A DNA stretch of 35,014 bases from a virus. Below are positions 15,629-32,409 of this stretch, in pieces. The notes beneath the pieces are model-generated. The model was not told the DNA's origin. It worked only from the letters and a program-made list of their open reading frames with translations, and searched no databases. The stretch lies in IMG/VR virus record IMGVR_UViG_3300044620_000972, positions 1 to 35,014 of that record. The stretch is one strand, 5' to 3'. Numbering within the stretch: the first letter of the stretch is position 1; each line of letters opens with the position of its first letter. A program made the position numbers and the translations under genes.

Positions 15629-16234
15629 TTAACGTAAACCAACTCCAGCGCGTGGTAGAGTTGCACGGAATGCATCTTGGAAGAAATGGTATGCTACTGA
15701 AACAGCAAATGTTTTAATCGCACCAGTTCCTTCAGCAATTTCAAATGCAACATCACCAACGTTTCTAATTGAAACGCCAACTAATTTAAATGCTCTTACA
15801 GGATTTAATCTTTTATCTAATTGAGTAACCATCATATATGATGTTGGGCCAGCAATTGTTCCTAATGGATAACCAGTTCCATTATTACTAAAACCAGCTT
15901 GACCAGTGAAGGCATCAAAGGTTCTTCTACTTTCATCTAAAAATAGATCTCTAATGTTTGAACTTTCTGAGCAATAAAATTCCATTTCATAGTTTTCACT
16001 TCCAGTAAATTCAACGGAACCGGGAAGATTAAATGTTTGGCCAGCATATTTTACGGTTTGATTAACAATGCTTCTTGCTGGTAATTTACCAGCTTTAGCA
16101 TAGACTAATTGATCCGCGCCAAACACAATTGGATTCCCGCCAAATTGTAATTCTTGCAATCTGAAATGATAATCTCTAGTAAAGTCATTTGATACTGCTT
16201 GCTGGAAAAACTTTTCAATTATTTGTTCTGTCAT
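15629..16234 (-). CDS. 19: Tail tube protein, gp19-like
   Basis: The protein has 201 residues. It has the all-beta layout of the tube: LPARSIVNQTVKYAGQTFNL (the loop and strand preceding the tube hexamer contact), EFTGSENYEMEFYC, an internal helical stretch (IRDLFLDESRRTFD) and the C-terminal strands FKLVGVSIRNVGDVAFEI and FAVSVAYHFFQDAF. Gp19 hexamers stack to make the inner tube through which DNA passes. It lies next to the sheath gene, as in T4. It has its own strong late promoter (16241-16248), consistent with high-level expression. Confidence 0.85.
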   Translation of the reverse strand: MTEQIIEKFFQQAVSNDFTRDYHFRLQELQFGGNPIVFGADQLVYAKAGKLPARSIVNQTVKYAGQTFNLPGSVEFTGSENYEMEFYCSESSNIRDLFLDESRRTFDAFTGQAGFSNNGTGYPLGTIAGPTSYMMVTQLDKRLNPVRAFKLVGVSIRNVGDVAFEIAEGTGAIKTFAVSVAYHFFQDAFRATLPRAGVGLR

Positions 16235-19119: not shown

Positions 19120-19695
19120 TCATAGCAAAATCGTTTCTAAACTTCTAAATACGAAAGTCATTTCCGATTCTATTTCATCTGGAGATCTGTAATTATAAGT
19201 GATTTCGCCAAGATCAGTAGGGAATGCAGATTTATAAACCCATTTAATTATATCTTTATTAAATTCATCTTTACCGACTATTTCAAAATCTGTAGAATAA
19301 TGCCCCAAACCTTTATCATTAGGTCTTAATTGTCCTTTATAAACATCTGTGTCTTGATCCCTCAATAAATCTAACCAAGAAAATATTACCCAATAATTAT
19401 TAAACATATTGTCAATAGTAAATTTTACTGTAACTGGCTCATAAGACGGTTTAGCATGGCTTGAAACATAGATATTACTTCCACTATACTTTGCATCTAT
19501 TGCTGGTACTTGTATCTTCGGTACTACAGTTCCAAAAACAGAAAATTGAAACGCAGTAATGTCAAAAGTATTATTATTTCTTTGAAATCTTTTATTTCTT
19601 TCAATCAAATCAAGAGGAATATTAAATCTCAAAGAAAACTTATCAGACCTTGCTTTGTTTAATGATGCCTGATCGTAGTATGTTGTATGGCTCAT
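19120..19695 (-). CDS. Tube-fold tail or neck protein between terminase and sheath
   Basis: The protein has 191 residues. Strand pattern VTVKFTIDNMFNNYWVIFSW, then LGEITYNYRSPDEIESEMTF and a final VFRSLE resemble the tail tube fold. In T4 the neighbouring genes around the terminase encode tail completion proteins such as gp15, so a tail terminator or sheath stabiliser is plausible, but this is inference. The start codon overlaps the terminase stop as ATGA (19692-19695), a sign of translational coupling, so it is read from the terminase message. Confidence 0.5.
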   Translation of the reverse strand: MSHTTYYDQASLNKARSDKFSLRFNIPLDLIERNKRFQRNNNTFDITAFQFSVFGTVVPKIQVPAIDAKYSGSNIYVSSHAKPSYEPVTVKFTIDNMFNNYWVIFSWLDLLRDQDTDVYKGQLRPNDKGLGHYSTDFEIVGKDEFNKDIIKWVYKSAFPTDLGEITYNYRSPDEIESEMTFVFRSLETILL

Positions 19696-21466: not shown

Positions 21467-22072
21467 ATGGCTAAAAATTCATTATTCGATCAATTATTCA
21501 ATCAAGTTATCAGCGAACAGTCTGGTTTAGGTGCAGATATGGGTGGTGGTGCTCCCGATATGGGTGGTGCTCCTTCCATGGAAGATGATGCAGCTGAATT
21601 AGGTGTAGATACTGAAGGCGGTGAAGGTGATGAAGGTGGCGATGACACCGTTACACTCACTCTTTCAAAAGGTCTTGCTCAAGAACTCATGGAAGTATTA
21701 AAGGGTGTAGTAGGTGAAGGAGAAGGTGAAGAAGAAGGTGGGGAAGAAGAAATGGGTGGAGAAGAAGGTGGCGAAGAAGGCGGTGAAGGAGAAGGTGAAG
21801 AACAAGGTGGCGCAATGGGAGAATCTCCAGCAGTTGAAACAATGGAAGAACTTCCTGTAGATAAGTATGTTAAGGCTATGCAAAGCAGAAATCAAAGAGT
21901 ACAAGGTTCAGCAACTAATGCAACCAATGCTCATGGAACTGCTAGTGGCGAAGTTACCAAGCCACATGGTCTCCAAAAAATGAATATGTCATATGATGAT
22001 GGTAAGAGCATGAAAGCTAAGACCACTGAGTATGGTGTTTCTGGAAAAGGTAAAAATATTCTCAATCGTTAA
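21467..22072 (+). CDS. Acidic Gly/Glu-rich late protein, candidate prohead core or internal protein
   Basis: The protein has 201 residues. The N-terminus MAKNSLFDQLFNQVISEQSG is an amphipathic helix. Residues about 22-60 are Gly/Asp-rich; a short helix with LSKGLAQELMEVLKGVV follows; then about 35 residues of almost only Gly and Glu; and a basic Gly/Lys-rich C-terminus ending GKGKNILNR. Very acidic low-complexity proteins occur in T4-type prohead cores (gp67 and gp68) and this might be such a scaffold, but there is no sequence proof. It has a perfect late promoter and is followed by a strong terminator, so it can be expressed on its own. Confidence 0.65.
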   Translation: MAKNSLFDQLFNQVISEQSGLGADMGGGAPDMGGAPSMEDDAAELGVDTEGGEGDEGGDDTVTLTLSKGLAQELMEVLKGVVGEGEGEEEGGEEEMGGEEGGEEGGEGEGEEQGGAMGESPAVETMEELPVDKYVKAMQSRNQRVQGSATNATNAHGTASGEVTKPHGLQKMNMSYDDGKSMKAKTTEYGVSGKGKNILNR

Positions 22073-30883: not shown

Positions 30884-31765
30884 TTACTTGCTCTTAATTA
30901 CATCTTCAATCAGTTCATCGATTCCAAAATCATCAATCTCAACATCAGAAACAACATCTAAGTCATCCTTTTTGCTGATAGATTCTAGAACTTCATCCTC
31001 TTCAATCTCTCTCTTAGCTTGTGATGATTGCTTAGAAGATTCTTGCTTTTCAGTCTGAGAGTTTACACAAAGGAAATGTGTATTCCAGAACTCCTTAATT
31101 TCTTCTTCAGTCTTGGTTTGAATGATAGTTGTAAGATCAAATACAGAATTTTGAATCTGTTCAACCTTCTCCTTAGACAATCCAAGATCTGATGGTGGAG
31201 AGAAACGACTGCTAGTATAAACAGTATACGGACCTTGCTTTTCTGCCTTCAACTTGAAGTTTACTCCACCTTCACCAAGATCAAATACACGCTGACCAAA
31301 TTCATCACTATCTTCACCATCTACAGCAGCTTCAATAATTTTGTTCAACTGACGACCATAACGAAGAATCTTTACAGTTCCATTGTTTTCTGGATTTTCT
31401 GGATCATCAACTACATAAACATTAACAGCCCAATACTCATTCCACTTTACCTTCTCTGCCTTTTCCTTAAGAAGTTGATTGTCACTCTTCTTAATCTTTA
31501 AACGCTCAGTTCCGATTGGATCTCTCTTACCAAAGGTTTGAAGAGAAATAATAGAAACATAATCTCCAGTGCTAAAACTGTCCCATCCATGAGAATAGTA
31601 ATGAAAGAAAGTAGAACTACCGTCCTTAATATTTGGTACAAGACGAAGAACATATGTCTTACCAGCCTTTGGTTTGAGAATGTTCTTATAAACACTATTA
31701 CCACCATCACCAGATGCCTTACTAAGTGATTCCCTAATTGATTTGAATATTTCAGATGTATACAT
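30884..31765 (-). CDS. 32: Single-stranded DNA-binding protein, gp32-like
   Basis: The protein has 293 residues (T4 gp32 has 301). The OB-fold core shows KPKAGKTYVLRLVPNIKDGS, FFHYYSHGW, EYWAVNVYVVDDPENPEN, KILRYGRQLNKIIEAA and GGVNFKLKAEKQGPYTVYTS, the order seen in gp32. The C-terminal 50 residues are acidic (EIEEDEV, VSDVEIDDFGIDELIED), the tail that recruits partners. Unlike T4 gp32, the core region between about 55 and 90 has no cysteine, so the zinc site seems to be lost. The start codon follows a 71-base G-free, repeat-rich leader that resembles the autoregulatory operator of T4 gene 32. Confidence 0.9.
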   Translation of the reverse strand: MYTSEIFKSIRESLSKASGDGGNSVYKNILKPKAGKTYVLRLVPNIKDGSSTFFHYYSHGWDSFSTGDYVSIISLQTFGKRDPIGTERLKIKKSDNQLLKEKAEKVKWNEYWAVNVYVVDDPENPENNGTVKILRYGRQLNKIIEAAVDGEDSDEFGQRVFDLGEGGVNFKLKAEKQGPYTVYTSSRFSPPSDLGLSKEKVEQIQNSVFDLTTIIQTKTEEEIKEFWNTHFLCVNSQTEKQESSKQSSQAKREIEEDEVLESISKKDDLDVVSDVEIDDFGIDELIEDVIKSK

Positions 31766-31836
31766 AATTAATTGATTTTATTGATATTATTGATTTTATT
31801 GATTATTAATGATTTTAATTTTATTGATTTGTTAAA
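31766..31836 (-). promoter_or_regulatory. G-free AU-rich leader, candidate gp32 autoregulatory operator
   Basis: The 71 bases directly before the gp32 ATG contain no G on the coding strand (no C on the plus strand), so the RNA there can form almost no structure and has no Shine-Dalgarno site. It consists largely of 9-base repeats of the type AAAATCAAT / AATATCAAT. T4 gp32 represses its own translation by coating an unstructured AU-rich leader; the match is by layout only. Confidence 0.6.
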
Positions 31837-32409
31837 CTTGAATTGAGCTTTTGATAAGACTTCAAAAAAATTATCGTCAAACCAAAGACCTATCAAGTCT
31901 TCACTCATTGACTTTACCACCTTCTCACCGTCTTTCAAGCAAAAAATGAAATAAATCGGAATTTTCCCATCTTTTAAATGTAATAGGATCGAATGTGATA
32001 AACCTTCACAATGATGAGCATAGTCATCAATGTTTATCCCCTTTTCAGAGATAAATTGTTCTACAAACTTAAAAGATTCTTCTGCCTTCTCTAACATCAT
32101 ATCAGAGTCTGGTTCAGAACTTAAAAGTTGTTTTAAATATAGATCATAAGCCTTAATAGCTCTTCTAGTAAGATAAAATTTTAAATCGAAATATTGTTCG
32201 TCTTTAAAAACTATATAAGGTGCTGATAAAAAATCTTTTACACTAATGTTTTTAAACTCTTCAAAAAAAGTATTAAGCCTTTTTAGCGTTTCTACCTTTT
32301 CCTTTTCCAGTCCTTGGAACTCTTGCCGCAACCTGAACGGTTTTCCTCGTAGTTTTCGTGATAACGACAGGTGTTCGTTGTATAGATATTTTTCGAAATT
32401 CGTGAGCAT
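31768..32409 (-). CDS. Hypothetical protein upstream of gp32
   Basis: The protein has 213 residues and is not firmly recognised. It begins MLTNFEKYLYNEHLSLSRKL, followed by RGKPFRLRQEF, an acidic-basic helix and VKDFLSAPYIVFKDEQYFDL, then YLTRRAIKAYDLYLKQL and DGKIPIYFIFCLKDGE. The C-terminal dozen residues are low-complexity (NKINNINKIN) and are encoded by the same 9-base repeats that form the gp32 leader. T4 has the helicase loader gene 59 (217 residues) at the same place, but I see no convincing sequence match. The start overlaps the preceding gene by 137 bases. Confidence 0.65.
   Translation of the reverse strand: MLTNFEKYLYNEHLSLSRKLRGKPFRLRQEFQGLEKEKVETLKRLNTFFEEFKNISVKDFLSAPYIVFKDEQYFDLKFYLTRRAIKAYDLYLKQLLSSEPDSDMMLEKAEESFKFVEQFISEKGINIDDYAHHCEGLSHSILLHLKDGKIPIYFIFCLKDGEKVVKSMSEDLIGLWFDDNFFEVLSKAQFKFNKSIKLKSLIINKINNINKIN

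Follow-up and report, generated by a model that had tools for sequence, protein, structure and literature searches.

A G-free, unfolded leader before a viral gp32-family gene: a possible variant of the T4 self-control element within the coding end of a putative helicase loader gene

In the window (the whole 35,014-nt stretch of viral DNA analysed here), a minus-strand gene of the gp32 family is directly preceded by 71 nucleotides that contain no G, are predicted to be unfolded, and double as the last codons of the gene upstream, a putative gp59-type helicase loader. Comparison with about 170 relatives suggests that the run is a variant of the known self-control element of T4 gene 32 and not an invention grown out of repeats. 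We would give about an even chance to the reading in which it forms the 3' part of a T4-like translational control leader of gp32 that lies inside the protein-coding 3' end of the loader gene. The features under discussion are collected in Table 1.

Table 1. Features at the gp32 locus of the window
Feature	Position	Strand	Remarks
gp32-family ssDNA-binding protein gene	30884..31765	-	293 aa, acidic C-terminal tail
G-free unfolded leader run, also last codons of upstream gene	31766..31836	-	ends at gp32 ATG
Stop codon of loader gene	31768..31770	-	2 nt before gp32 ATG
Upstream gene, putative gp59-type helicase loader	31768..32409	-	213 aa; predicted fold and gene order
9-nt-period repeat array	31771..31830	-	AATCAATAA-type units, 6.9 copies; Tandem Repeats Finder, score 76
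Predicted folded element, bulged hairpin	31831..31904	-	directly 5' of G-free run, slightly overlapping

The gp32-family gene and its upstream neighbour

The product of the downstream gene, called gp32 in the initial annotation, indeed belongs to that family of ssDNA-binding proteins, as judged by matches to phrog_224 (E 1.5e-37) and PF08804 (E 1.1e-16; 61.9 bits for the core domain, against a curated cut-off of 26.8), so that the run stands before the kind of gene that T4-type operators control. At the alignment columns where T4 gp32 has the cysteine cluster of its zinc site, Cys is missing from the window protein and likewise from the proteins of relatives L010 and L119 and of cyanophage S-RSM4; T4 biochemistry would therefore apply to the window protein by analogy.

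Sequence searches assign the upstream ORF to no family convincingly, and its profile finds neither a match nor any detectable similarity to T4 gp59. The AlphaFold2 model of its product (pLDDT 91) has an all-helical fold, and the top three matches of this model in BFVD are helicase loaders of T4-like phages (E 2.2e-3, 1.2e-2 and 0.19), the best of them with probability 1.00 but a TM-score of only about 0.38. PDB fold searches with the same model gave low-Z partial matches, none of them usable, and T4 gp59 was absent among the matches listed. The ORF sits between an ORF in the position of gene 33 and gp32, in agreement with the T4 gene order 33, 59, segG, 32. Because of this synteny and the predicted fold, the latter with modest TM-scores, we label it a putative gp59-type helicase loader. 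Searches of isolate phage genomes gave no match to it. The neighbouring ORF at the place of gene 33 encodes 137 aa with a basic C-terminus and overlaps the loader gene in another frame by an unusually long 137 nt (32273-32409).

The G-free run

The run, read on the minus strand from 31836 to 31766, is TTTAACAAATCAATAAAATTAAAATCATTAATAATCAATAAAATCAATAATATCAATAAAATCAATTAATT; its length grows to 73 nt when the AT of the gp32 ATG at 31765 is counted. Runs of this length were reached on the minus strand in 0, 0 and 3 of 200 simulations under Markov models of order 1 to 3. It ranks second among minus-strand G-free runs; the longest (21689-21771, 83 nt) lies opposite a long Gly/Glu-rich, C-free coding repeat tract in the plus-strand ORF 21467-22072, of which it is the antisense. 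Elsewhere in the window, two minus-strand ORFs (15629-16234 and 19120-19695) both match the tail-tube family phrog_45 and flank a 937-aa tail-sheath protein.

Among the 38 gene starts of the window, gp32 has the fewest G in positions -70 to -1, namely none, the next lowest count being 5 and the mean 10.3. The predicted minimum free energy (MFE) of the 71-nt RNA is 0 kcal/mol. The initial annotation had described a 71-base leader of gp32 without G and unable to fold, and both properties hold. Like T4-type operators, the run is unstructured, rich in A and U, longer than 40 nt, and carries short repeats up to the start codon; a Shine-Dalgarno (SD) site, which T4-type operators include, is absent from the 71 nt. 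The spacing of the loader stop and the gp32 start makes translational coupling of the two genes possible.

Repeats and the origin of the loader tail

The run shares its reading frame with the 3' end of the loader ORF, which ends in IINKINNINKIN and a stop, and the repeat of period 9 reported there earlier was recovered. The excess of lag-9 periodicity in the DNA over synonymous recodings of the same I/N/K-rich peptide is only marginal (P 0.08). The initial annotation had proposed that the operator grew by repeat expansion and doubles as the low-complexity C-terminus of the upstream protein. We reject the expansion for the window: the loader tail IKLKSLIINKINNINKIN aligns to KIKPLSIKLIKTINKILK of relatives without internal gaps, its NKINNINKIN segment matching their TINKILK-type tails, even though the gp32 proteins of these relatives are only about 43% identical to that of the window, and the tail is therefore ancestral. 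In the nearest distinct relative, L002, 65 of the last 80 nt are identical and the differences are substitutions only. The leader does double as coding sequence, as had been claimed; the tail that it encodes is a predicted helix, and a disordered low-complexity tail is likewise rejected.

Genuine tandem repeats stand before gp32 in other lineages, with AAACTA units in L112 and AAACT units in L119, both in non-coding leaders; these two and the window are the three most periodic of 170 gp32 leaders. Overall, the enrichment is modest, about twofold (12 of 170 gp32 starts vs 22 of 698 other starts, Fisher p 0.03).

Selection against G at the RNA level

Across 132 distinct gp32 leaders and 652 other starts, gp32 leaders hold 3.5 G per 40 nt vs 6.1 at other starts (p 4e-21) and have an MFE of -1.1 vs -3.1 kcal/mol; the relatives are uncultivated contigs, and kinship inflates these counts. 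The last 15 codons of the loader genes contain 51 G, where 72 would be expected from their amino acids and codon usage (Stouffer z -4.1; 18 representatives, not fully independent); in eight control windows placed elsewhere in these genes, z ranges from -1.6 to 0.2. For the window alone, the synonymous avoidance has P 0.022. These comparisons support the view that G-poverty before gp32 recurs among the relatives and is selected at the RNA level; codon choice in the terminal helix of a protein thus seems to be constrained by an RNA element. Strict freedom from G, the loss of which in relatives with this gene pair would have told against the initial annotation, decays fast: the G-free run persists over 66 nt in L002 and is interrupted by two G in L003, which keeps the pair. 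Judging from these alignments, the conserved feature is G-poverty, and not the strict absence of G on which the initial annotation had relied.

A folded element 5' of the run

A structured element before the G-poor run is the part that the earlier reader missed. In the window, the stretch from 31904 to 31831 has a predicted fold of -17.6 kcal/mol (z -2.4). The consensus structure of the window clade scores better than 995 of 1000 recodings, the other 5 being as good, and three pairs are changed on both sides among the three sequences. The boundaries were chosen after looking and the clade has only three distinct members; these figures are no more than suggestive. In three relatives, synonymous recodings also fold less well than another stretch of the loader gene (32011-32094, minus strand, about -327 to -243 from gp32; z about -4), which outscores the 31904-31831 element in the recoding test.

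RNAalifold applied to long alignments of clades A and B returned almost nothing, and hairpins were afterwards tested by counts for named structures. In clade A (L007-L079), a hairpin at about -88 to -48 is made of rare loader codons that are frozen (TTG in 32/32 against 5% usage, TCG in 32/32 against 4%). Its cells are 93% paired, vs 53 +/- 10% in synonymous recodings that keep the relatedness of the sequences (0/5000 reach this value), and compensatory pairs are present. If every recoding is allowed its own optimal structure, 10 of 500 score equally well, and for this reason we regard the alignment evidence for the clade A hairpin as strong without being extreme. The leader of clade C (L247-L280 and L057) is non-coding; in it, a hairpin of the form GGTAAC-loop-GTTACC is 98.7% paired, shows compensatory UA to CG and CG to UA changes, and is followed by an AACTAA-type run. 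The loader ends of clade B (L061, L071, L075) may form a long stem at about -95 to -45, CTATAATA..TATTATAG, around CCTTG/CAAGG; it takes in the -10 box, and is strong in L061 (z -5.3) and weak in L063. Rfam has no family at gathering score in the five loci searched, T4 included, and the sole sub-threshold match in the window is to a plant snoRNA.

Promoters and leader length

Sites matching the sigma70 consensus in at least 10 of 12 positions occur within 130 nt of the start in 84% of 177 gp32 upstream regions vs 12% of 705 other starts. In clades A, B and C and in L112 and L119, some 65-98 nt separate the -10 box from the gp32 ATG; in 81 of the 177 leaders the box is within 30 nt of it. The latter gp32 messages are therefore perhaps nearly leaderless, and a long gp32 leader would not be universal. 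In L171-L220, L004, L080 and L225-L246, the box ends about 6-25 nt before the ATG, often overlapping the loader end. Long leaders are poorer in G than short ones, but few clades underlie this difference, the p value of 1e-11 without collapsing becoming a non-significant 0.36 by cluster. No dedicated sigma70-like promoter of gp32 was found in the window, where the best match, 9/12, is at chance level; gp32 of the window clade is therefore probably transcribed from the upstream genes.

Proposed mechanism and its alternatives

In the operator model, the folded element is followed by the G-free, A/U-rich unfolded run, which leads up to the SD-less start of gp32. As long as free gp32 is scarce, the open A-rich run would admit ribosomes to this start, and ribosomes ending the loader gene 2 nt upstream would assist initiation. 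Once gp32 exceeds the available ssDNA, it would coat the unfolded run cooperatively, probably nucleating at the folded element, and block initiation. T4 gp32 covers roughly 7 nt per protomer, at which spacing the run would have room for about ten. That gp32 binds and represses here, and that the upstream structure takes part, is drawn by analogy with T4. We favour this model because gp32 leaders are G-poor and unfolded and the last loader codons avoid G synonymously; because hairpins precede the run in clades A and C and the consensus structure of the window clade beats nearly all recodings; because simple repeats of differing unit stand before gp32 in L112, L119 and the window; and because the operators of T4 and RB69 have a matching layout. 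Counted against it are the relatives with perhaps almost leaderless messages, the missing SD site and the missing zinc cysteines, as well as the three-sequence basis of the window's folded element, the higher score of the other stretch of the loader gene, and the loss of the contrast between long and short leaders on clustering.

The main competing account is that the run is only an open start region, where an A-rich, unfolded stretch and coupling to the loader gene give strong SD-less initiation, with no feedback by gp32, to serve a high demand for the protein in a host that translates without SD sites; we see it as a minority reading of considerable probability. SD-like motifs are found at 52 of 698 other starts and at only 1 of 170 gp32 starts, the loader stop overlaps or abuts the gp32 start in the window clade and in clade A (as ATGA among clade A relatives), and synonymous avoidance of G together with an MFE near 0 is what such a site would need. 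By itself it leaves unexplained the simple repeats of several clades and the conservation of hairpins before the run, although these hairpins could serve message stability, and the G-free length far exceeds a ribosome footprint.

Coding constraint alone, that is, a conserved K/I/N/L-rich C-terminal helix of the loader in an AT-rich genome with no selection on RNA, is improbable in our estimate. The tail is indeed conserved and helical, and 23 such codons at window-wide usage would hold only about 3 G, with at most one G in 15% of cases by chance; this account is already disfavoured by the z of -4.1 in the last 15 codons of the 18 representatives, with none of the eight control windows below -1.6, and by G-poor runs in the non-coding leaders of clade C, L112 and L119. 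The hairpin and the run might also be a message-processing or stability element (such as a 5'-end hairpin that protects from decay, or a site of nuclease cleavage) and not a translational operator. A promoter-like site does stand shortly before the hairpin in clades A and C, and the gene 32 messages of T4 undergo processing and have unusual stability (PMC3014915, PMC535899); such a site is absent at that place in the window clade, and we consider this explanation very unlikely.

Comparison with known systems

gp32 of T4 and RB69 represses its own translation: it nucleates at a pseudoknot and from there spreads along a leader of UUAAA repeats that is unfolded (PMC535899, PMC3014915). In the window, as in these phages, a gp32-family gene is preceded by a folded (here, predicted) 5' element and then by a leader that stays unfolded for more than 40 nt up to the AUG, is rich in A and U and carries repeats, with a helicase-loader gene (putative in the window) nearby upstream. 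Both overlap an upstream frame: the T4 pseudoknot lies partly within segG (PMC535899), whereas the window leader lies wholly within the loader gene. The window differs from T4 and RB69 in having neither an SD site nor any G in the run, in its 9-nt AAUCAAUAA-type units in place of UUAAA (UUAAA occurs in it once and UAAA four times), and in a predicted bulged hairpin in place of the pseudoknot, and repression would be by analogy. The pseudoknot has been reported absent from RB49. The window loader resembles gp59 of T4-like phages in size (213 vs 217 aa) and in its place directly before gp32, and differs from T4 gp59 in having no detectable sequence similarity and no PDB fold match.

The independent design proposed in the initial annotation is doubtful: a structured element is predicted just before the run, and sister clades combine a hairpin with a G-poor run, the layout of T4 and RB69. 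We found no description of the gp32 leaders of these lineages in the open-access literature. From the alignments come candidate operators of several uncultivated lineages, which differ in repeat unit and in whether they overlap coding sequence; relatives whose gp32 messages look almost leaderless provide a contrast set. We propose tentatively, at somewhat under an even chance, that self-control leaders of gp32 in T4-like phages are a recurrent layout, a 5' hairpin followed by a G-free, unfolded and often repetitive run, that can re-evolve from whatever sequence adjoins the gene on its 5' side. On this view, some lineages would have placed it wholly within the codons of the loader's last helix, where the RNA would serve as operator and encode a protein domain, with no SD site to occlude. 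Like the window, clades A and C, L112 and L119 all have an SD-less ATG that follows an A-rich, G-poor run; a covarying hairpin stands before this run in clades A and C, and tandem repeats occur in L112 and L119. Unlike the window clade, they carry a sigma70-like promoter 65-98 nt upstream, and in clade C, L112 and L119, again unlike the window, the leader is non-coding.
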